Of a stretch of DNA of 29,533 bases, positions 2,566 through 20,487 are shown piece after piece. This stretch comes from a virus, in the IMG/VR virus record IMGVR_UViG_3300048930_000093, positions 1 to 29,533 of that record. One strand, written 5' to 3'. A program made the translations under genes and the position numbers. Within the stretch, counting starts at the first letter, position 1; each line of letters opens with the position of its first letter. The notes beneath the pieces were generated by a model that saw nothing but the letters and a program-made list of their open reading frames with translations, was not told the DNA's origin and made no database searches.

Positions 2566-5500
2566 TCACCTCTTGATGACCGCGGCGCTGACCCACGGGT
2601 CGCGCGAGACGATGGTGCAGGCCGCGCCCGACAGGTTGGTCACCTGCACATCGATGGCGACACGGATGCGCCGGCCGGCCGGCACGACCACCTGCTGCGT
2701 GCGCGCGTGCTGGAACCTGGCGACGCCGCTGGCGGCGATGTCGGGCACCGGCTTTTCGTAGTTGGCCTCGCCGCGCTCGGCCACGAACGACCACGATCCG
2801 GAATAACTCTCCTCCTGGATCGTCAGCCGCGCGCGGTCCACGCGCGTGGTTCCGGTGCCGTTGGTGTTGGTGACGGTGAAATTGGCAGCGCCTCCGACCT
2901 CTACCGTGACATCGAAGCCGAGCGTGTTCTCCCAATAGAAGGCCACCGGGGTCTGGCTGCCGCCGGCACCGGCGCCCAACGTCGTGCTGACGGTGGTGTC
3001 GCTGTCGCCGGCTAGCTCCGTTGCGGCGTTGTCCGCCAGCTGCGGCGTGTCCACCGACCGGGACAGAATGTCGTCTTCGCGCGGCGCGTGCCCGGTCAGC
3101 ACCGTGCCGGGCTGGAACTGCGCGGCGTCGATGTCCATGGTGGCCAGCGTCACCGAGCCGTTGTCTTCCATCCAGATGTAGGCGCGGGCATAGGCGGCGG
3201 TGGCTGGGGCATCAGCGCTCAGCGAAAACCTCGTGAGCGTCGCGGTAGGCGTGAACAGGGACGAGGCACCGCTGATGAATGAAACACTGGCGTCATACCA
3301 GTCGATGTACAGGCGCAGCTTCGGCGTGCCGGCGGAGATTGAGCCCCACACAGACAGAATGTACGGCTGCCCGCCGGAAACAACGACGGCTTGGTACGCG
3401 CCAATGCGGTCGCCGGTTCCGGTGCCGAGCCCGCTGCCGCTGAAGCGTTGCTTGTAGGTGCCGTGGATCGCGCCGCTGTTGATTTGCGAGTAGGTGATGG
3501 TGCCCGTTGTTCCAGCGCTGTACGCGGTCCACGAGTCGGCCAGGCCATCGGCGTCAATGTCGGCCTCGAAGCTGCTGTTGCGCAGCAGGTTGCCGCCTGC
3601 GTCGACGCTCAGCGCGCCGTCCACCGTGTGCGAGAACCACGCCCAGGGCCCGGCCTGCCCCAAGCCGTTGATCGCGCGGACACCCATCGTCAGGATGTCG
3701 CCGTGGTTCGGCCCGACGACATAGGCGCTGGTGCTGTCGCCCGGCACGCTCACCACCTCGTAGGGGCCGCCGGGCCGGCGCCAGATCACCTCTATGCGGC
3801 CGGAGCCGTCGGTGACGTAGGCATCTGTGACCGCATCCCAGGACACCAGCACGCGCGGCACGATCGCGCTGCCGGTGCTGTGCAGCACCGTGGTGCTGTC
3901 GCTCAGCGCCGATATGCCCGTCAGCGCTGCCACCACCCACGGGCTCGGCAGGCCGGTGTTTGGCGCCGGGTCTGCGGTTGCCGCGTCGGCCAGGTCATAC
4001 ACCGCGGCGGCGTCCTCCTGCAGCGTCAGGACCACCGCCGAGCGCAGGCCGAACTGCCAGTCCGTGACGCGGAAGGTCTTGCTGCTGAAGCCGTACTCGG
4101 CGCTGGTGACGGTGACGCGGTCGCCCACCTGCAGCGGCCAGGCGCGCAGCTTGGCCGGGTAGCGGATCACCAGGCCGTCTCGGTTGCGCTCGGTGAAGAT
4201 GCGCGCCAGGTTGCGCGCTCGCGCCTTGCTGTCGGTCCATGGCAGCGCGACGTCGGACCACAGCTCCTCGCCGTCGGCCGTCACGAAGGCGCTGTTCTGG
4301 TACGGGTCGAAGTCGCTGGGCGTGCCGCGGCCGGCGGCGATGTACTGGCCGCGCAGGCTGTTGAACAGCTGGTCCTGCGGCGCACCGGCCTGCACGATCT
4401 CGATCTGGCCGTGCAGGTCGTCGTCGGTCAGCGTCATCACGCTGGCGGTCCACGCACCGGCGAGGATGCCCCAGGACGCGCCGTAGACCGCATAGCCGGC
4501 CATCGACTCGCACAGATCCTCGAGCACGCCCTCGCGCCCGCTGTCGGCCACGAAGGCGCCATGCGCGGTGTACGTGGCGTAGTCGTACCAGGTGCCGGTG
4601 TGCGTGCCGCTGCCCGCGGTGGTGATGTTGATGGCTGTCCCGGCCTTGGCATTGGCCAGGCTGGTGGCGAACTTGAACACCTTGCGATCCGTGGTCTCGA
4701 TCACGTAGTAGGTGGTCGCGGTCGCCAGCGGCGCCGGCAACGTGCCGGAGGTCGTGAACCGCACGCCGTCGCCGGTGGTCCACCAGCGCTCGCTGGCGAA
4801 GGTCAGCTGGTCCGTGGTGGTGCCCGCGGTGAAGGTGGCCGCGTGCGACTGCGAAGCGGCCAGGCTGCGCGCGTCGCAGGCATTGGCCGCAGCGTTGCAC
4901 AGCGCGGTGTCGATCTCGGCCGCCGCCGCCTCGAAGCCCCACGGCTGGGTGAGGAAGTCGCGGATGATCAGTGCGTTGTTGCTGCTGTAGCCGGTGGTCG
5001 ACGTGCGCGTGTCGAGGATGGGCTTGCCACTCCCCAGCATGGTGATCTGCGGCGGGCCGCCCTGGAAGCGCGTCTCCTCCAGGTCGAGCGTCACCACGCT
5101 GTAGGCCAGGCCGCGTAGCCGGTGGTTGCTGGTCCACTGCGACGGCACCACGCTGTTCAGGTAGGTGTCGACGGTCTGCCCGGCGGTGCCCAGGTGGTGC
5201 GAGGCGCGCACCCTGGCGGCGTTCGTGGCCACGGTGTAGTTCACCGTGGCCCCTGGGTCTCCGCTGATGCGCGTGTTGCCGATGCTCAGCGTCACCGACA
5301 CCTCGGCGTAGGTGGAGTCCAGCCCGGCGCCGCTGCTGAGGTAGGCGTTCAGCACGCTGGCCACCGCCGGTGAAACGTCGACATACCCGCCGCCGCCAAT
5401 GGTGGCGGTGCGCGTCGCCGGCTTGTTGGAGGCGAAGAACTCGCCGCCGGTGGTCCACCCGCTGCCGTCGAGCGTGCCCAGCGGGATGCCGTCGATGAAC

Positions 5501-5952
5501 AGCTCGTGGATCGCTGTCAGTTCGTGCGCGGCCCACACGATGACCAGGTGCTTGTAGGCGTCGGCCTTGGTGTAGCTGCTGCCGTTGTCGCGCACGCCGG
5601 TCTTGTCGCTGGTGAAGATGGCGACGATGTCGCCGCCCACCGGCCCGGGGCGGCCGTAGACGATGCGCCACGGCGGGTTGGCCTGCAGCAGCGTCACGTT
5701 TCGGTCCTGCAGGCCGGCGTTGTACTCGGCGCGCTGCCTGGCGGCAGCCTTGCGCGCCTTGCGGCGGCCGGCGGCGGCGCCGTAGACGTTGACGGCGATG
5801 GCGCCGATGCCGAGCACCTGGCCGACAGTCAGCGCTGCGGCCGCGGTGCCTATCGCGCCCCACGCCGACGCGAGTGCAGCGCCGATGCTCAAGGGGTCGG
5901 CCCAGGCTGCGGCGGGCAGCAGCGCCAGCAGCAGGGCGGCGGCTCTCAGCAT
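2566..5952 (-). CDS. Central tail (tip/hub) protein, gpJ-like, with FN3-like and carbohydrate-binding-like regions
   Basis: About 1128 residues from ATG 5952 (an alternative ATG lies at 5967). The start overlaps the upstream gene by 7 bases. The N-terminus, MLRAAALLLALLPAAAWA, looks like a cleavable signal peptide, odd for a virion protein, followed by a hydrophobic glycine- and alanine-rich segment. Residues about 85-360 (PPWRIVYGRPGPVGGDIVAIF onward) match the phage tail-hub family of lambda gpJ type. Residues about 367-460 hold an inserted Ig-like domain (TGDGVRFTTSGTLPAPL, GTTTDQLTF). About 697-776 is FN3-like (VSWDAVTDAY, YEVVSVPG). About 784-959 is jelly-roll carbohydrate-binding-like (NLLRNSSFEADIDADGLADSW). 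The C-terminal 170 residues are a Thr- and Gly-rich beta region. It should form the tail tip that contacts the host surface. Confidence 0.9.
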   Translation of the reverse strand: MLRAAALLLALLPAAAWADPLSIGAALASAWGAIGTAAAALTVGQVLGIGAIAVNVYGAAAGRRKARKAAARQRAEYNAGLQDRNVTLLQANPPWRIVYGRPGPVGGDIVAIFTSDKTGVRDNGSSYTKADAYKHLVIVWAAHELTAIHELFIDGIPLGTLDGSGWTTGGEFFASNKPATRTATIGGGGYVDVSPAVASVLNAYLSSGAGLDSTYAEVSVTLSIGNTRISGDPGATVNYTVATNAARVRASHHLGTAGQTVDTYLNSVVPSQWTSNHRLRGLAYSVVTLDLEETRFQGGPPQITMLGSGKPILDTRTSTTGYSSNNALIIRDFLTQPWGFEAAAAEIDTALCNAAANACDARSLAASQSHAATFTAGTTTDQLTFASERWWTTGDGVRFTTSGTLPAPLATATTYYVIETTDRKVFKFATSLANAKAGTAINITTAGSGTHTGTWYDYATYTAHGAFVADSGREGVLEDLCESMAGYAVYGASWGILAGAWTASVMTLTDDDLHGQIEIVQAGAPQDQLFNSLRGQYIAAGRGTPSDFDPYQNSAFVTADGEELWSDVALPWTDSKARARNLARIFTERNRDGLVIRYPAKLRAWPLQVGDRVTVTSAEYGFSSKTFRVTDWQFGLRSAVVLTLQEDAAAVYDLADAATADPAPNTGLPSPWVVAALTGISALSDSTTVLHSTGSAIVPRVLVSWDAVTDAYVTDGSGRIEVIWRRPGGPYEVVSVPGDSTSAYVVGPNHGDILTMGVRAINGLGQAGPWAWFSHTVDGALSVDAGGNLLRNSSFEADIDADGLADSWTAYSAGTTGTITYSQINSGAIHGTYKQRFSGSGLGTGTGDRIGAYQAVVVSGGQPYILSVWGSISAGTPKLRLYIDWYDASVSFISGASSLFTPTATLTRFSLSADAPATAAYARAYIWMEDNGSVTLATMDIDAAQFQPGTVLTGHAPREDDILSRSVDTPQLADNAATELAGDSDTTVSTTLGAGAGGSQTPVAFYWENTLGFDVTVEVGGAANFTVTNTNGTGTTRVDRARLTIQEESYSGSWSFVAERGEANYEKPVPDIAASGVARFQHARTQQVVVPAGRRIRVAIDVQVTNLSGAACTIVSRDPWVSAAVIKR
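4572..4850 (-). other. Inserted Ig-like domain within the central tail protein
   Basis: This stretch encodes roughly residues 367-460 of the tail-tip protein. It carries the recurring phage module pattern 'attains a value in a gap': TGDGVRFTTSGTLPAPL, TTYYVIETTDRKVFKFATS and GSGTHTGTW. Similar modules are found at variable places in unrelated phage structural proteins. It splits the hub fold between NACDARSLAAS and ATYTAHGAFVADSGREG, so it appears to be a later insertion. Boundaries are by eye. Confidence 0.55.
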
Positions 5953-12852: not shown

Positions 12853-13188
12853 TCAGCGGTCCACCAGCTTCAGCCAGAGCGTGCGGTCATCGGTCTGACC
12901 GTCGGCGCACACCAGGCGCACGGTGAAGGGGTACTTCGTGCTCTTGGTGAACGTGGCGCCGTCGGCCACCTTGATGCGGATGGCCAGTAGCCCGCCGTCG
13001 TCGGCCGTGTAGTCGCTGGATACGCACTCCAGCGGCGATGCAAGAACGATCTCGTGGCTGGCATAGGTGGACCCCAGCGAGGCAAGCCAGTCTTCCAGCT
13101 CGAAGGGGATGACGATCTCGGCGTTGGTGTCGAACAGCGCCCACGGCTTCAGCGGGTTGTCGATGTTCCAGAGGTTTCCGGTAGCCAT
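12853..13188 (-). CDS. Small Ig-like virion protein
   Basis: A 111-residue protein starting at ATG 13188 with a GAGG ribosome binding site 6 nt upstream. It has a pattern seen in many phage fibre or baseplate-associated small proteins: DTNAEIVIPFELEDWLASLGSTYASHEIV, a short strand region, then FTVRLVCADGQTDDRTLWLKL at the end. It is probably a beta-sandwich attached to the fibre or head-surface proteins encoded upstream. It ends 4 bases from the convergent HNH gene. Function is inferred from pattern and place in the adhesin block. Confidence 0.65.
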   Translation of the reverse strand: MATGNLWNIDNPLKPWALFDTNAEIVIPFELEDWLASLGSTYASHEIVLASPLECVSSDYTADDGGLLAIRIKVADGATFTKSTKYPFTVRLVCADGQTDDRTLWLKLVDR

Positions 13189-13196
13189 GGTGGTCC

Positions 13197-15785
13197 TCAG
13201 TGCGGGCGGTAGTTGCGGCCAAACGCGGGCACGCGGTAGCGGTTGAAGGTCGACAGCGGGGCGTTGGGCACCAGCGTTCCGGCGGCCGACCCAGACGCTT
13301 GCGCATCACCCTCCAGCGGCACGCCGTGGGTCATCGATCCGCCGGCCGTCGCCTGCGCCGCAGCGCTACCGACAAGGCCGATCGTCAGGGACAGCGCGCC
13401 AGTGCCGGATGCAGCGCCAGCGCCAGCGCCGGCCAGCTGCACCACGCCGTCGAAGCTCGCGCCGGCCGTCGCTTGAGCCACCGCGGCGCCCGAAAGGTTG
13501 ACCGTGATCGACAGCCCGCCTGCAGCCGCAGCGATGGCCTGCGCGTCCGCGCTGATCGGGATGGCGATGCTGAGCGCTGCCGCGCCTGCTGCAGAGCCCG
13601 CAGCGGCGCCGGCAAGGGGCGCGCCGTGGGTCATGGTGGCGGTGGCCGCAGACTGCCCAGCAGCCGCCCCCGACAAGCTGACCGTGCCGCTGAAATCGGC
13701 CGATGCCGTGGCCTGCCCGACCGCGCTGCCCGCCAGCGGGACCTGCAGGCTCAGGCCGCCAGAGGCAGCAGCCTGCGCGGCAGCAGCGGCCGACAGCGTG
13801 ACCGAGATGGACAGGCCGCCGCCGGCCGTCGAGACGGAGACTGCGGCGCCGGCCAGGTCGGCAATGCTGCGCGGCGTGTAGGCGTCAGCCCTCGGCTGGA
13901 AGTAGCGGCCAACGCTGTACGGACCGCGGCCGGGGCGCGGGCGGCGGCCGAATAGCTCGACCTCGGACACGCGCACCAGGATCTGCGCTGCGGCCGTAGC
14001 GCTGCCGGCGGCCGTGCCGGCGAGCGGAACACCGTGCGCAAGGTCGCCAGTGGCCGCCGCTTGCCCGGCAGCAGCGCCAGCAACGGGCACGCCGTGCGTC
14101 ATGCCCGCAGTCGCAGTAGCCTGCCCGGCCGCCGAGCCTTGCAGCGGCACACCATGGGTCAGCCCGGCCGCAGCAGTCGCAGCACCAGCAGCGCCGCCCT
14201 GCAGCGGAACACCGTGGCTGAGCCCGCCAGTGGCCGAGCCGGCGACGACGGCCGCGCCCGCCAGGTCCACCGCCGTCGAGGCACGCAGGCGCACCAGCAT
14301 GACGCCGCCCGACGAGTTGCCGGCGCTGCCGGTGGCCGACATGGTGAACGTGACCGGGCCGGACCCGCTGCCGGCTGTGACCTGCACCTCGCCGATCTGG
14401 TAGGCCACGTCGTCGCCCGAGGTGGTGCCAGTCGGCCCCGCGCGGCTGTTGAACGTGCCGAAGGTGACGCCGGTAGCCGATAGGCTGTGCGCGCTGTGGC
14501 CCACCACATCCAGGTCGCTGTTCTTGGCGACGAACACCAGCACGGTGTCGCCGGCCGCCAGGTCAAGACTGCCGGTGACGACGGACCAAGAGGCCGACGC
14601 CGCGCCCTGCGAGCCGGCTGCCGTGGCGATGTCCCAGCCGGTGCCGCCGCTGCGCGAGAACGCAATGCTGCGGCTGTACGCAGCATTCCCGCTGGGGATG
14701 CTGATCGACTCGGTGGCCGCGTCCTCGGTGCCGTCGCACACGCGGTGGAACACCGTGGCGTACACGTCGCCCTGGTCGGCGCCGGCCGCGCCGCCGTCGC
14801 CCATGACGGCCTGCGCAGTGAGCGCGTAGCCGGTCGGCGTGTTCGGCCCGTTGGTCGGGTACTTGTTGACCACGCACCACAGCGCGAGGTCGGTGTTCTC
14901 CAGCGTGTCCGGCTGGCGGAACAGCACTGACCCGATGCCCGACTGCGGCGCGCTGCTGAGCGAGCGGAAGGCGATGAGGCTGGCGCCGCTGACCGAGACA
15001 TCGGCGGTGGCGTCGGCTGCTGCGGCGGCGTCGCCTTGCAGCGGCACACCGTGAGACAGCGCACCGGTGCCGGTGGCCTGGCCTGTTGCCCCGCCGGCAA
15101 GCGGCACGCCATGAGACAGGGCGCCCGTTGCGGTGGCCGCCGCCGTCGCGGCGCCGGCAAGATCTACGGGAGTGCTGCCTCCGATGTCGCCGAATGCGAA
15201 CTTGGTGAACTGCACCTGATTGGCCGTGCCCTGCGAGGCGCCAATGCACGCATAGGGGCCGCTGTTGACGGCCGTCCCGGGGTTGTTGGTCAGCGTCGCA
15301 TCGGGTCCGCGGCCATCCCAGGTGCTCGCGTCCGTGGGCGCGTCCGCAGTGATGTTCGACCACAGACGCACCTCGGTCGCCGAGCCGGTGCCGTCAACGA
15401 TGATCCCGACGCTTTCGCCCGAATAGAAAGGAGCGCCGGGCAGACCCCCCGATGTCTGGATGCCGGTGGAGCTGGTGCCGACGTTGGGCTTGTAGCCCCA
15501 CTCCACGGTGCCGGCGTTGCCGTCCACGTAGAAGACGTAATAGCCGGACGATGAATTGGTGTAGCGCAGGCACCCGAGCGGGTATTGAAAGTCCGTCGTG
15601 CCTGAAACCATCTTCAGGTACTGCGTGGCGCCAGAAAGCGAGGTCGAGTGCTTGAGGACAGTCTCGACCCAGCCGCCAGCGGTGATGCGCAGCTTGTCGG
15701 ACGACACATCAGCCGACCCCTGCTCGGCGCTGAACGCGCCCGGCAGAGCGCCGGTGCCGGAGAATGTGACGACTACGTCGGTCAT
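13197..15785 (-). CDS. Large repeat fibre protein with exact 20-residue repeats
   Basis: An 862-residue protein starting at ATG 15785. Residues about 1-200 form a beta sandwich of lectin or jelly-roll type (TDVVVTFSGTGALPGAFSA, VEWGYKP, GIIVDGTGSATEVRLW). Residues 207-266, 505-602 and 641-845 hold about 17 units of exactly 20 residues, of the type LSHGVPLAG-x-A-x-GQATATA. Residues about 268-504 form a second globular beta domain (IGSVLFRQPDTLENTDLALW, GTGWDIATAAGSQGAASASW). Segments 611-632 (GRRPRPGRGPYSVGRYFQPR) and 848-862 (NRYRVPAFGRNYRPH) resemble each other, so the gene looks like two tandem units fused. Probably a fibrous head- or tail-surface adhesin. No catalytic residues seen. Confidence 0.75.
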   Translation of the reverse strand: MTDVVVTFSGTGALPGAFSAEQGSADVSSDKLRITAGGWVETVLKHSTSLSGATQYLKMVSGTTDFQYPLGCLRYTNSSSGYYVFYVDGNAGTVEWGYKPNVGTSSTGIQTSGGLPGAPFYSGESVGIIVDGTGSATEVRLWSNITADAPTDASTWDGRGPDATLTNNPGTAVNSGPYACIGASQGTANQVQFTKFAFGDIGGSTPVDLAGAATAAATATGALSHGVPLAGGATGQATGTGALSHGVPLQGDAAAAADATADVSVSGASLIAFRSLSSAPQSGIGSVLFRQPDTLENTDLALWCVVNKYPTNGPNTPTGYALTAQAVMGDGGAAGADQGDVYATVFHRVCDGTEDAATESISIPSGNAAYSRSIAFSRSGGTGWDIATAAGSQGAASASWSVVTGSLDLAAGDTVLVFVAKNSDLDVVGHSAHSLSATGVTFGTFNSRAGPTGTTSGDDVAYQIGEVQVTAGSGSGPVTFTMSATGSAGNSSGGVMLVRLRASTAVDLAGAAVVAGSATGGLSHGVPLQGGAAGAATAAAGLTHGVPLQGSAAGQATATAGMTHGVPVAGAAAGQAAATGDLAHGVPLAGTAAGSATAAAQILVRVSEVELFGRRPRPGRGPYSVGRYFQPRADAYTPRSIADLAGAAVSVSTAGGGLSISVTLSAAAAAQAAASGGLSLQVPLAGSAVGQATASADFSGTVSLSGAAAGQSAATATMTHGAPLAGAAAGSAAGAAALSIAIPISADAQAIAAAAGGLSITVNLSGAAVAQATAGASFDGVVQLAGAGAGAASGTGALSLTIGLVGSAAAQATAGGSMTHGVPLEGDAQASGSAAGTLVPNAPLSTFNRYRVPAFGRNYRPH
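13251..13865 (-). repeat. 60-bp period repeat block 3 of the fibre gene
   Basis: Encodes residues about 641-845 of the fibre protein. Short anchors (VTLSAA, VPLAGS, VSLSGA, APLAGA, IPISAD, VNLSGA, VQLAGA, IGLVGS, VPLEGD) recur at residues 662, 682, 702, 722, 742, 762, 782, 802 and 822, exactly 20 apart with no indel. DNA copies are diverged from one another. Confidence 0.8.
13980..14273 (-). repeat. 60-bp period repeat block 2 of the fibre gene
   Basis: Encodes residues about 505-602. Anchors DLAGA, VPLQGG, VPLQGS, VPVAGA and VPLAGT recur 20 residues apart (506, 526, 546, 566, 586), most units beginning with THGVP or SHGVP. Confidence 0.8.
14988..15167 (-). repeat. 60-bp period repeat block 1 of the fibre gene
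   Basis: Encodes residues about 207-266. Two VPL anchors at 227 and 247 with LSHGVPLA and LSHGVPLQ follow the same 20-residue period as the two larger blocks. Confidence 0.75.
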
Positions 15786-15788
15786 CGC

Positions 15789-17126
15789 TCAGGCCACCTC
15801 AAAGGCCCCAGCGGACCACTTGCCTTCGCGGCTCGTGCCGTCTGGATCGACGTTGTATGGGCTGTTGCCGACATCGATCCCCGCGCCATCGGCCTGGCTG
15901 CCGCCGACAATGCGGAAGTCCTTGTTGGCGCGATCAACGAACGGGTCAACCGTCGCGGTGACGTTGTTCGATGCCGAGTTGGCCGTCACGCCGGTGGAGG
16001 CGCTGTTGTAGAACAGGTTGTTGCGCGCCTCGTTGCCCGACCCGCCGCTGAGCAGGATCATCGAGTAGACCGACGAGTCCGCGATGTCCACGAAGGTGTT
16101 GTTGAACACCTTGCAGTTCTGCGCCGAATCGGACCACCCGCCCCCGCCGAAAAAGATGCAGGAGTTGCGCCCGCCACTCTTGCTGTTGAAGAAGACGTTG
16201 CCGTAGATCAGATTGCCGGTCGGGTCACTACCCCCGAACGCGCCGATCTCGGCGGTCAGCCCCGATGTGCCGTCGTTCGGGTCGGTCTGCGTGGAGTCCC
16301 AGAAGCGGCACCACCGCACCACCATGTTGTTGATGCCGACGTTGGGCCCAGCGATGGCTTCCTTGCCCCAGCCCATCGAGAAGTGGCAGTGCTCGAACAC
16401 CAGGCCATTCGAACCGTGGGCGTAGACCAACGCGCCGACGCCGTTGTGGATCGCGCAGTGCGAGAACGTCACATTGGTCTGGTTGTAGACCAGATAGAGC
16501 ACGCTGCCGTAGGCGGCAATGGTCCCTGAGCTTGGGTTCGTCGCCCATGTCGCGCCAATATCGATGTACTTGAACAGGCTGTTGGCCGCGCTTTCGCTCG
16601 CGCTGCTGTTCGATGAGATCGACGTTGCCCGCATGCCGTAGCCGGCGGGCGCACCCCAGATGTACGACTCGGTGCGCGTGGAGCCGTCCATCACGAAGTA
16701 ACCGCGCGCCACCGTGATGCTGCCGAACACCACCTGCGTCGATGCGTATGAATCGCTCCAGCCGGTGTCGGTGCCGTGAATGGCCGGGGTTGCCTTCTTG
16801 AACCGCACCACCTGCGTGCCGCTGGTGTTGTCGTCGAAGGTGTAGCCGCCGTAGGAGCCACCCGCGAACCAGTACGTGGTGTCGCGGCTCAGTGTGGCCG
16901 GGATCGACGTGTAGGCGTTCGTCCAGTCGTTGCCGCTGCCCGAGCCGGATGCGCCCTGGCGCACGTACTTCTGGTTCGTGGTGGGGGCGTCGTCAGTCTC
17001 CCCGGCGTCTACGGTAAGCGCGCCGGCTACCGTCGCGGCTGCCTGAGCGACGGCGGACAGGTGGATGGCCTGCGGTGTCCATGCGTTGCCGCGACCAGCC
17101 GCGAAGATCGACTGCGCGATCGGCAT
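15789..17126 (-). CDS. Right-handed parallel beta-helix protein (tailspike- or adhesin-like)
   Basis: A 445-residue protein starting at ATG 17126, ending 3 bases before the repeat fibre gene starts. The N-terminal 45 residues are an Ala- and Val-rich attachment-like region (LSAVAQAAATVAGALTVDAG). From residue about 55 (YVRQGASGSGSGNDWTNAYTSI) onward the pattern of short beta strands with Asn and Gly turns (FEHCHFSMGWG, NMVVRWCRFWD, NLIYGNVFFNSK, KVFNNTFVDI, EARNNLFYNSA) is that of a right-handed parallel beta helix. The end, ADGAGIDVGNSPYNVDPDGTSREGKWSAGAFE, is a familiar closing motif of pectate-lyase-like repeat proteins. Such proteins bind or degrade surface polysaccharides. Catalytic residues cannot be assigned. 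It belongs to the adhesin block between head and connector genes. Confidence 0.85.
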   Translation of the reverse strand: MPIAQSIFAAGRGNAWTPQAIHLSAVAQAAATVAGALTVDAGETDDAPTTNQKYVRQGASGSGSGNDWTNAYTSIPATLSRDTTYWFAGGSYGGYTFDDNTSGTQVVRFKKATPAIHGTDTGWSDSYASTQVVFGSITVARGYFVMDGSTRTESYIWGAPAGYGMRATSISSNSSASESAANSLFKYIDIGATWATNPSSGTIAAYGSVLYLVYNQTNVTFSHCAIHNGVGALVYAHGSNGLVFEHCHFSMGWGKEAIAGPNVGINNMVVRWCRFWDSTQTDPNDGTSGLTAEIGAFGGSDPTGNLIYGNVFFNSKSGGRNSCIFFGGGGWSDSAQNCKVFNNTFVDIADSSVYSMILLSGGSGNEARNNLFYNSASTGVTANSASNNVTATVDPFVDRANKDFRIVGGSQADGAGIDVGNSPYNVDPDGTSREGKWSAGAFEVA

Positions 17127-17133
17127 GGTGGTC

Positions 17134-17706
17134 TCAGCTGTACAGGTCGATGTGCCCGTACTGCACTTGGATGCTGTTGCCGTTGCTGATCGACCAGGCG
17201 GCCAGCAGGTCGATCAACTGGCTGGCGCTGTTGTCGAAGCCGGAGCCGTTGGCGGGCGCGGCGTTGTACGGCAGCATGTGCACGCCCGCCCCGCCGGCGC
17301 TGGGTGCCGCGGCGCCGACGACGGCGTGCGACTCGAACTCGCAGCCCTTGGGGAACAGCAGCGTGCCGGTGCTGTTGCCGTAGGCGCGGCACACCAGCTC
17401 GCCCGAGAACTTCCAGTGCACGTCGGTCTTGGCCACGGTGTTCAGCGACATCGCGCCGGACGCCAGCACGTCGACCGAGCCCAGCCGCAGCGCCAGCGCC
17501 AGCGTGCCCGGTGTCGTGACCACCGTGCTGATGCGCCCGCCGAACTCGAAGGCGATGATCTTGCCAACGCGGTCGAAGTAGCCGATCGGCAGCGCCGCGG
17601 TCTTCTTGGCGCTGGGCAGGATGCTGGTCTGCGATGTGCTGCCCGTCAGAGCGCTGCCGTCCTCGGTGATTTCGAGGATGCGCTCGCGGAATCCGTAGCT
17701 GCTCAT
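17134..17706 (-). CDS. Unidentified beta-rich virion protein in the adhesin block
   Basis: A 190-residue protein starting at ATG 17706 with a clear GAAGGAAC ribosome binding site. The sequence (MSSYGFRERILEITEDGSALTG, LPIGYFDRVGKIIAFEFGGRIST, TPGTLALALRLGSVDVLASG) predicts beta strands and no membrane segment. A C-terminal part (ASQLIDLLAAWSISNGNSIQVQYGHIDLYS) ends like phage structural proteins of unknown family. Neighbours on both sides are adhesin- or enzyme-like, so a virion-surface role is likely. The family is one I do not recognise by name. Confidence 0.65.
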   Translation of the reverse strand: MSSYGFRERILEITEDGSALTGSTSQTSILPSAKKTAALPIGYFDRVGKIIAFEFGGRISTVVTTPGTLALALRLGSVDVLASGAMSLNTVAKTDVHWKFSGELVCRAYGNSTGTLLFPKGCEFESHAVVGAAAPSAGGAGVHMLPYNAAPANGSGFDNSASQLIDLLAAWSISNGNSIQVQYGHIDLYS

Positions 17707-17718
17707 AAGGCTGTTCCT

Positions 17719-19644
17719 TCAGGTCAAGAGGGTGCGTGCGGGGCCGATGTAGCGGCGAGCGACGCACAGGTTCCGCGCTCGCCAGTAGATGTCGTGGTCG
17801 GCCGGCTTGGTGCCGCCGTGGTAGGCCATCAGCCGGATGCCGCGGATGCCCATCGCCGGGTGGCGGAAGAACGCCAGGTCGGTGCGCTCGCCCGCGGGCA
17901 CGCCATCGAGCCAGGTGCGCAGCACGCCGTCATTGCGCGCGATGCCGTTGCCGCCGGCATCGGGGCTGCTCATGTCGATGGTGTTGATGCGCAGGTAGGT
18001 CTCCTGCGTGTACCAGCGGCCCATCGGTATGCAGCGATCCATGCCGCGCGTGCCGATGCGCAGGTTCTGCTCGGTGCCGTACAGGCCGCCGTCGCGCAGC
18101 GTGTCGAAGGGCCCCAGGTGCGACGGCGCATAACCCAGCGCGATGGCACCGGGGTAGGCGTTGTGCTCGGGGTGCGGCATGCCCAGCGTGTGGCCGCGCA
18201 GCGAGTGGCCCTGATAGACCCACTGCTGCGATGCCTCGTCCCATGTGCGACTGCCGTTGGAGTCGATCTGCCCACCGCCGTAGCCATATGTGCCGTCGAT
18301 CAGCCAGCCGCCGGACGGCAGGCCCTTGCCGTACTGCAGCTCGAAGCCGGGGCCGAACTTGAAGCCGAAGTTCTTGGACCAGAAGCTATCCGACTCAAGG
18401 AACAGCTCCATGCGGAAGTACACCTCGGCCACATGCGTGGCCGGGTCGGGGTAGTAGTCCTGCTCGCCCGCCAGCGCGCGCTGCCACAGGATCTTCCATT
18501 CGCCGCCGCCGCTCAGCTTTGGCTGCTTGGCGATGCAGGTCCGCATGTAGAAGCGGCCCGGATGATCGGGGTCCGGGTGCACACTCGTCTTCGAGTGCTG
18601 CAGCGGGATCATGGTCACGTAGTTGAACAGCCCCGCCTCGCGGCCCGCCTTGACCAGGATGCTGTCCTTCTGCGCCTGGCCGGGCGTACCGTTCCAGTTC
18701 GATTCGCGGAAGTCGCCGGCCGCCAGCACGTCGGGATGGCCGGGCAGGTTCTCCTCGCCGACTTCCATCGCCAGGCCGTACACCGGCGCTTGGCCGGCGC
18801 CTCCCAGTAGCAGCGGCGGCGCGTCGGTTTCGAACACTGACAGCACCAGCGGGTATTCATCGTCCGAGCTGTTTGCGTGCAGCCGCATGACGGCGCGCTC
18901 GACGGTCGGCAGATCCTGCAGGCCGTGGAAGTGGATCAGCTGGCGGTAGCGCCGGTCCATCAGGGCCGACACATCACAGTCCATCGCGGCCGGCGGGTTC
19001 TTGGCGGTGGCGGTGGCCGGCGTGAACACGGCCAGGTCGCCGCGCAGCACGTGCTCCGCGCCGTCGCTGGTCACCACGAGCTGCGGCGGGTTGTCGCCGT
19101 GGGTGCCGCACCAGGTGACGCGCGCATTCGCGTGCGTCTTGGGCGCGGTCATGAAGAACGCGCCGCGGTTCTCGCCGGCATGCCAGCGCTGCGCCAGCTC
19201 GGTGATGTCGAGATCCACGTAGCCAGTCGTCCCGGCAGGCACGGCCAGCGTGTACCAGGGGTCGGCGCCTTGCTCGATGCCGTTGCGGTCCAGCCAGTCG
19301 CCATTGACGCGCTTCCAGCGCAGGTGCACCGCGCCGTTGAACACGACGGCGTTCGGACCGCTCATCACCACGTGGTTAGGCCACACGCGATAGGAGCCCG
19401 GCGCGGGTACGGGTGCTGTGGAGTAGTCGGGTTCCGGCGCAGGCGGCTCCGGCGCAGGCGATGGGGCAGGAGCCGGCGGTTCAGGCGCGGGCGCCGGCGG
19501 CGACTCAGGGACCGGCGCGGGTGCTGGGGCAGGCTCAGGCGCGGGCGCAGGAGCCTCCAGCGACGCAGCAATGCTCTGCAGCTCGGCCACAGTGCTTTCC
19601 AGGCCCGCCACCAGCGGGCGCAGGCGATCCGCCAGTGCGACCAT
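17719..19644 (-). CDS. Polysaccharide-lyase-like virion protein with Pro-rich stalk
   Basis: A 641-residue protein starting at ATG 19644. Residues 1-30 are helical and coiled-coil-like (LRPLVAGLESTVAELQSIAAS). Residues about 31-83 are a Pro/Ala/Glu stalk. Residues about 84-290 resemble DNRLRE-type beta domains found in cell-surface proteins (YVDLDITELAQRWHAGENRGAFF, VERAVMRLHANSS). Residues about 300-640 resemble the jelly-roll of family PL14/PL20-like polysaccharide lyases: DFRESNWNG, VYFRMELFLE, FGFKFGPG, RWYTQETYLRINT, DGVLRTWLDGV, and AYHGG at 607-611. Such enzymes cleave acidic polysaccharides such as alginate. A capsule or exopolysaccharide depolymerase is the likely role, on fold impression only; catalytic residues were not verified. 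Confidence 0.72.
   Translation of the reverse strand: MVALADRLRPLVAGLESTVAELQSIAASLEAPAPAPEPAPAPAPVPESPPAPAPEPPAPAPSPAPEPPAPEPDYSTAPVPAPGSYRVWPNHVVMSGPNAVVFNGAVHLRWKRVNGDWLDRNGIEQGADPWYTLAVPAGTTGYVDLDITELAQRWHAGENRGAFFMTAPKTHANARVTWCGTHGDNPPQLVVTSDGAEHVLRGDLAVFTPATATAKNPPAAMDCDVSALMDRRYRQLIHFHGLQDLPTVERAVMRLHANSSDDEYPLVLSVFETDAPPLLLGGAGQAPVYGLAMEVGEENLPGHPDVLAAGDFRESNWNGTPGQAQKDSILVKAGREAGLFNYVTMIPLQHSKTSVHPDPDHPGRFYMRTCIAKQPKLSGGGEWKILWQRALAGEQDYYPDPATHVAEVYFRMELFLESDSFWSKNFGFKFGPGFELQYGKGLPSGGWLIDGTYGYGGGQIDSNGSRTWDEASQQWVYQGHSLRGHTLGMPHPEHNAYPGAIALGYAPSHLGPFDTLRDGGLYGTEQNLRIGTRGMDRCIPMGRWYTQETYLRINTIDMSSPDAGGNGIARNDGVLRTWLDGVPAGERTDLAFFRHPAMGIRGIRLMAYHGGTKPADHDIYWRARNLCVARRYIGPARTLLT
19395..19554 (-). 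repeat. Pro/Ala/Glu low-complexity stalk in the lyase-like gene
   Basis: Encodes residues about 31-83 of the lyase-like protein, built of short PAPAPEP, PESPPAP and PAPEPPAP units. It joins the N-terminal coil to the globular part, so a flexible or rod-like spacer is likely. Confidence 0.8.
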
Positions 19645-19653
19645 GACGACGGA

Positions 19654-20088
19654 TCAGTTGTCGATCTGGAACGACAGCGCGCCGATCGCAAAAGACACCG
19701 TGTCGCCGCTGTTGATCGTCTTGCTCGATGTCAGCGCCGCGTAGAACAGCAGGTTGCCGCTCGAACTGGCGTCGTACACACCGAAGTGCGTCACGGTGCC
19801 CCAGCCCGCGCTTGGCGTCGGGAAGTTGATGGCCACGCCGTTTTCGATGGTGCCGTCGGTGCCGGAACTGGTGCCCGTGCCGCTGGCCTGCGAGTTGGTC
19901 CAGTTGGTGCCGTTGCACGCGACGGTCACGCGCGCGTAGCTGCCGCCCGAAACCTCGGTGCCGCCGCCGGTGTCGCTTGGCGCGGCAGTCAGCAGGCCAA
20001 CGTAGGTGTTGCTCGGCGCAGTGAACGATGTTCCGCGCAGGATGTGGTCGAGAAGCTTGTTCTCAAGATAGTCGGACAGTGCGGCCAT
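19654..20088 (-). CDS. Gp80-like structural / tail fibre-associated protein
   Basis: A 144-residue protein starting at ATG 20088, with a GAAGGAACC ribosome binding site. The start MAALSDYLENKLLDHILRGTSFTAPSNTYVGLLTAAPSDTG is the hallmark of a widespread phage structural family (Gp80-like), with GGSYARVTVAC and the Gly- and Thr-rich middle, then GWGTVTHFGVYDASSSGNLLFYAAL, where these conserved segments recur. Members are often annotated as minor structural, head fibre or tail fibre proteins. In this genome it begins the adhesin block that follows the head-tail adaptor gene. Confidence 0.8.
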   Translation of the reverse strand: MAALSDYLENKLLDHILRGTSFTAPSNTYVGLLTAAPSDTGGGTEVSGGSYARVTVACNGTNWTNSQASGTGTSSGTDGTIENGVAINFPTPSAGWGTVTHFGVYDASSSGNLLFYAALTSSKTINSGDTVSFAIGALSFQIDN

Positions 20089-20121: not shown

Positions 20122-20487
20122 TCAAACGACCATCAACAGCGTCGCCGCCGCCGGGTCGGTGCCGACCACTGCGCTGAGCGTGCCGGCGGTGTCCATGGAT
20201 TGCAGGCTTCGACGCAGCGTCGACAGCGCGTTTTCCTGATGCTTGAAAGACCGCGACGCACCGGATGGCGCGCCTTGCGAGACCAGCCGCTTTGCAGCAC
20301 CGCCGCAGGCGACGATGGCCACGGCCATGGCCTGCATCAACTCAATCTGCGGCTCGGTGTAGCCGGCTTCGAACATCGCCGGCTCGGCTGTCTCGACCTG
20401 ATCGCAGGCCGCCGTGACCACGAAAGGCGGCAGGCTGACGCCAATCGCCTTGTCGAGGTATTCGGTGGCCTGCGCTGGCGTGATCAA
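20122..20487 (-). CDS. Head-tail adaptor protein (DUF7370-like)
   Basis: A 121-residue protein starting at TTG 20487. The TTG is chosen because AAGGGG lies 6 nt upstream and no ATG exists near the conserved N-terminus. The sequence ITPAQATEYLDKAIGVSLPPFVVTAACDQVETAEP followed by QIELMQAMAVAIVACGGAAKRLVSQGAPSGASRSFKHQ matches a family of small helical head-tail connector proteins recognised by the S(S)QxAPSGASRSFRY-like motif. It probably attaches below the portal. Position after the capsid genes fits. The end (LSAVVGTDPAAATLLMV) also follows the family's usual ADPTA-like close. Confidence 0.75.
   Translation of the reverse strand: MITPAQATEYLDKAIGVSLPPFVVTAACDQVETAEPAMFEAGYTEPQIELMQAMAVAIVACGGAAKRLVSQGAPSGASRSFKHQENALSTLRRSLQSMDTAGTLSAVVGTDPAAATLLMVV

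Follow-up and report, generated by a model that had tools for sequence, protein, structure and literature searches.

A candidate exopolysaccharide-directed fibre payload with a PL14/PL36-like jelly-roll domain on a proline-rich rod in a probable siphovirus

The 641-residue protein encoded at positions 17719-19644 (minus strand) of the viral DNA analysed here (the window, a 29,533-base virus record) is, with chances that we put marginally above even, a payload that binds and probably also cleaves exopolysaccharide, carried by a side-fibre cassette of a probable siphovirus. A role as depolymerase is plausible; we infer catalysis, a place in the virion and, as the probable substrate, a uronic-acid-bearing exopolysaccharide or capsule. 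The usual form in which phage depolymerases are recognised is the β-helix tailspike. If our reading is true, a jelly-roll lyase fold carried on a Pro-rich rod beside a GP4-type fibre base would represent a different depolymerase design, one that escapes the models searched in Pfam, NCBIfam and PHROG.

Architecture and constraint of the 641-residue protein

The protein is encoded by a single open reading frame with an ATG start, which is retained in five viral relatives with identities of 80-92% and 54%. For all pairs and all regions compared, dN is lower than dS (ratios about 0.1-0.6), and the reading frame is therefore a constrained gene. Its product is divided as follows:

19555..19644, minus strand: N-terminal amphipathic helix, residues 1-30 (heptad pattern; also in close viral relatives)
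19399..19554, minus strand: Pro/Ala/Glu-rich rod, residues 31-82 (composition)
18775..19398, minus strand: carbohydrate-binding region, residues about 83-290, Disaggr_repeat/DNRLRE followed by a CBM96-like half (PF06848, NCBIfam DNRLRE, CBM96)
17722..18750, minus strand: predicted PL14/PL36/PL20-like β-jelly-roll domain, residues 299-641 (AlphaFold model, Foldseek, VIA-align, haloarchaeal match)

The heptad pattern of residues 1-30 was matched by 0.065% of 20,000 shuffles (permutation P=0.00065), and this helix is likely an oligomerisation or docking segment. In the rod, 25 of the 52 residues are Pro and 14 are Ala; a poly-Pro rod replaces it in the copy of viral contig L006. The sequence supports both the coiled N-terminus and the Pro-rich stalk proposed in the preliminary description, and the strings on which that description drew, RWYTQETYLRIN (residues 543-554), WLDGV (578-582) and YHGG (608-611), were all located in the translation. 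Two things had been overlooked: the sugar-binding region of about 200 residues that separates the rod from the lyase-like domain, and an architecture shared with secreted proteins of Burkholderiales.

Within the sugar-binding region, residues 106-178 match Disaggr_repeat (PF06848) at E=1.3e-8 and 35.2 bits, above the cut-off of 33.9, and a match to NCBIfam DNRLRE (E=1.1e-6) falls below the cut-off of that model. CBM96 (PF24517) scores 13.9 bits against a cut-off of 26. Some bacterial relatives likewise show CBM96 after Disaggr_repeat, at up to 25 bits and hence below the same cut-off of 26.

The fibre cassette and the location of the protein

Besides terminase, portal, tape-measure and tail-fibre-like genes, the window encodes a DUF6260-type capsid protein. 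Relatives of the latter are found in contigs of Rhodoferax, Comamonas, Pseudacidovorax and other Burkholderiaceae, and the phage host is probably a Comamonas-related bacterium of soil or water. Between a DUF7370 gene (20122-20487) and the genes to the left of 13197 lies a cassette in which the 641-residue protein is accompanied by four others, with a possible adaptor gene beyond its end:

19654..20088, minus strand: gp80-like fibre I protein, directly upstream of the 641-residue protein gene (PF23140, PDB 8jou)
17134..17706, minus strand: 190-residue cassette protein (no Pfam, PHROG or PDB match)
15789..17126, minus strand: right-handed β-helix protein of the same cassette (PF13229)
13197..15785, minus strand: 862-residue repeat protein at the cassette end (translation; no family match)
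12853..13188, minus strand: possible GP4 gp77-like fibre-tail adaptor (PF23148, below cut-off)

The gp80-like neighbour is homologous to the fibre I protein of Ralstonia phage GP4, with 167 bits for PF23140 (E=2.5e-49, cut-off 27) and E=1.1e-18 for PDB 8jou. The β-helix protein, whose presence beside the gene had been anticipated from its sequence, matches PF13229 at E=4.5e-6 and 26.8 bits, above the cut-off of 25.9. With both proteins in its cassette, the phage may target two kinds of polysaccharide, as the preliminary description proposed. For the product of 12853-13188, the match to PF23148 (E=3.3e-4, 21.6 bits, below the cut-off of 27) is suggestive of an adaptor like GP4 gp77; a PDB search with this protein gave no match. 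The 862-residue protein consists largely of ATATGxLSHGVPLAG-type repeats, and a shorter version of 536 residues is present in viral contig L002.

The slot occupied by the 641-residue protein gene differs in content from one related prophage to another. In contigs L020-L022, the DUF7370 homologue is followed by the next head-completion-like gene without anything large between them, and in L019 and L023 other proteins occupy the slot. The occupant in L023 (11797-13299), a Burkholderiaceae contig, is a 500-residue protein with a weak GDSL esterase match. Within the cassette itself, L002 and L006 carry a different protein, of 146 residues, in place of the 190-residue one. The genes before the cassette differ: in the window, L001 and L004 they belong to the capsid region, whereas L002 has one that looks terminase-like by eye and L006 one that looks portal-like by eye, and the whole cassette may therefore be transferred as a unit from phage to phage.

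Location in the virion is plausible from the gene neighbourhood, since the gene directly follows the GP4 fibre I homologue. For phage phiM5, the annotation records detection in particles both for its gp80-like homologue and for a putative host-binding tail fibre encoded nearby.

The gp80-like genes of three viral contigs begin, by eye, with a signal-peptide-like stretch (L002, about 5264-5791; L004, about 5294-5824; L003, about 4646-5266), which is of twin-arginine type in L002 and L004 and Sec-like in L003, is lacking in the window and L001 copies and is unexpected in a virion protein. Additionally, L003 carries a small lipoprotein-like gene (5274-5654) between its gp80-like and lyase-like genes.

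We consider it improbable that the protein is instead a non-virion enzyme, made during infection or lysogeny and altering the host exopolysaccharide as its secreted bacterial relatives may do. Lipoprotein- or signal-like N-termini in several of these relatives, and the signal-like starts of the gp80-like genes in L002-L004, would fit such an enzyme; the N-terminus of the 641-residue protein, however, is not signal-like, its gene comes straight after that of a fibre protein homologue, and a rod with a heptad segment suits a virion appendage.

Fold, relatives and active site of the C-terminal domain

An AlphaFold model of residues 299-641 was built from seven phage sequences and is of moderate confidence (pLDDT 60.6, pTM 0.69), with pLDDT below 50 for residues 491-498 and 507-536; a model of residues 82-641 from six close relatives (mean pLDDT 37.8) was set aside. 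Searched with Foldseek, the 299-641 model returned PL14, PL36 and PL20 lyases (vAL-1, AkAly30, Aly36B and TrGL) as all of its top eight matches, with E-values from 4.5e-9 to 1e-6. VIA-align gave Z-scores of 16.8 for Aly36B, 16.3 for both AkAly30 and vAL-1 and 13.8 for TrGL, compared with at most 13.7 for other jelly rolls and 11.9 for a lectin-type carbohydrate-recognition domain. PL7 and PL13 lyases, sialidase domains and lectins also appeared in the fold search, with lower scores than the PL14, PL36 and PL20 enzymes. On this moderate-confidence model, residues 299-641 adopt the β-jelly-roll lyase fold of PL14/PL36. The comparison with PL14 and PL20 enzymes that the preliminary description had called for thus agrees with the fold that it proposed, and the modelled jelly roll is, as it had suggested, unlike the usual β-helix tailspike.

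No Pfam, NCBIfam or PHROG model matched the C-terminal domain itself, even at E 10, the PL14 family PF21294 included. PHROGs gave no match for the 641-residue protein, tblastn of the whole protein and of its C-terminal domain found none among 50,697 phage records, and a scan of genome contigs with the phage profile yielded no relative. A PDB search with the single protein produced matches only around the Pro-rich stretch.

Relatives were reached by other routes. With tblastn, the last strands of the domain match haloarchaeal plasmid proteins (best E 7e-5), some of them annotated as polysaccharide lyase; the matched proteins themselves match PF14099 or PF21294. A tblastn match on a Rhizobium plasmid was dropped, as no related-looking open reading frame lies at that site. 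With the profile of the phage family, protein matches came from genomes in the order and family to which Comamonas terrae belongs; the L063 protein is matched at E 8.8e-59 across positions 16-557 of 563. Several of these Burkholderiales relatives share the order Disaggr_repeat, CBM96-like, PL14-like, and three of them (L038-L040) pass the PF21294 cut-off at 53-71 bits. Profiles that include the bacterial relatives match PDB sequences of Aly36B (E 5e-7 and 2e-6); their matches to AkAly30 and vAL-1 are weaker. Together, the structural matches, the shared domain order and the three relatives passing the PL14 cut-off indicate that assignment to a lyase fold is right.

Related domains occur in phage context in three further viral contigs (L043, L044 and L045); near the L045 domain, Pfam confirms a gp80 protein. 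When 23 lyase domains were placed in one tree, all five phage copies of the window type grouped in a single clade (support 100/100) on a long stem branch of 1.44 changes per column (100/100), within a larger group to which L045 and five bacterial proteins also belong. The secreted Burkholderiales proteins with matching domain order suggest a possible source of the phage domain. Compared in bins of 30 residues, the window protein is mostly 83-100% identical to that of L002 or L003 up to about residue 320 and 34-93% identical thereafter, and L002 and L003 are alike along the whole protein. This pattern suggests two alleles of the lyase domain on one chassis; two such alleles on nearly identical sugar-binding regions would point to recombination at the domain boundary.

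The catalytic centre of Aly36B comprises Lys143, Arg169, Tyr185 and Tyr187, of which Lys143 possibly serves as both acid and base (PMC8286568). The corresponding positions are:

18358..18360, minus strand: K429, equivalent of the catalytic Lys143 of Aly36B (alignment; role of Lys143 from PMC8286568)
18196..18204, minus strand: S481-L-R483, an S-x-R motif, likely equivalent of Aly36B Arg169 (conservation)
18121..18129, minus strand: A506-P507-S508, most likely position of Tyr-x-Tyr, motif absent (MAFFT alignment A8 and two of three profile alignments)

K429 is invariant in the nine-sequence MAFFT alignment A8 and retained in the window clade. The S-x-R motif is conserved across this clade and most bacterial relatives, R483 being equated with Arg169 by motif and not by structure. 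No Tyr-x-Tyr occurs between R483 and the W544 strand of the 641-residue protein, and none of the five complete close phage copies has the motif beyond R483. It is kept in L043, L044, L045 and nearly all cellular relatives examined; L040 lacks the pair. MAFFT A8 and two of three hhalign comparisons align the motif to A506/S508, and the third places it at Y522-G-T524; the L-INS-i alignment also deviates from the first register. Because the registers differ, we give replacement of both tyrosines as likely; as aligned, at least one Tyr of the pair is missing under either register. An intact lyase active site, as implied by the preliminary description, is therefore not supported, whereas its Lys and Arg are kept. 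With the active site partly kept and Pfam matches to the domain lacking, we refrain from assigning it to PL14.

With the Tyr pair missing, the domain may be either a lyase or a lectin. A lectin of PL14/PL36-type descent, which lost catalysis together with Tyr-x-Tyr and only binds capsule or exopolysaccharide for adsorption, is a close rival, with a probability well short of even. The uniform absence of the motif from the close phage copies, set against its retention in the other viral contigs and cellular relatives, favours loss of catalysis, as does the long stem branch of the window clade. On the other hand, the clade retains K429 and R483, dN stays below dS, the Lys of Aly36B may act as both acid and base (PMC8286568), and the register at the Tyr position is uncertain, so that Y522 could be the proton-transfer Tyr. 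The combination of a lost Tyr pair and a kept catalytic Lys would permit a sharp test of cleaving versus binding only.

H485, H491 and H509 are also invariant among the five complete close phage copies, H509 adjoining the likely Tyr-x-Tyr position of A8. That these His residues replace the Tyr pair in a rebuilt active site cleaving another polysaccharide is very improbable: the region is modelled below good confidence, and invariance in a set of five related sequences carries little weight.

In the favoured reading of a polysaccharide-cleaving payload, the N-terminal helix and Pro-rich rod would hold the protein away from a GP4-type fibre base built with the gp80-like neighbour, and the Disaggr_repeat/CBM96-like region would grip the polymer. 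An acidic chain would lie in the cleft of the jelly roll, and there K429 would perform β-elimination in the manner of the Aly36B Lys, with R483 against the carboxylate. More broadly, and tentatively, since we rate it somewhat below even, the close phage copies may form, within the PL14/PL36 jelly-roll superfamily, a branch specific to phages, which kept Lys and Arg and lost the Tyr pair, which either cleaves through a Lys-centred or rebuilt site or acts as a lectin, and which GP4-type fibre cassettes carry as an exchangeable payload.

Comparison with known systems

Among characterised enzymes, the PL36 alginate lyase Aly36B (PDB 6kcw, 6kcv and 6kzk) resembles the window domain in its jelly-roll fold (Z 16.8, 222 aligned residues, 3.5 Å) and in the Lys and Arg positions, but identity is 17% and its Tyr185/Tyr187 pair is not found in the window domain. 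To our knowledge, Aly36B has no rod, heptad helix or phage context. The PL14 alginate lyases vAL-1 (3gne/3a0n), likewise viral (from a Chlorella virus), and AkAly30 (5gmt) share the fold at Z about 16; they differ at 12-15% identity, and the window domain lacks both a PF21294 match and Tyr-x-Tyr. The PL20 glucuronan lyase TrGL (2zzj; Z 13.8), compared by fold only, is more distant than PL14/PL36.

The secreted Burkholderiales proteins (L037-L042 and L063-L069) have the same succession of Disaggr_repeat, CBM96-like and PL14-like domains; unlike the phage protein, several have signal- or lipoprotein-like N-termini, and all examined except L040 contain Tyr-x-Tyr. At the level of gene organisation, the module of Ralstonia phage GP4 (gp80 fibre I; PDB 8jou) similarly places a gp80-like fibre protein beside a polysaccharide-directed payload. 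So does the three-gene module gp34-gp36 of Alishewanella phage LSH1, which combines a gp80-like fibril with a lyase-like payload, but there the payload, gp34, is modelled as a β-helix and not as a PL14-like jelly roll (PMC13243795).
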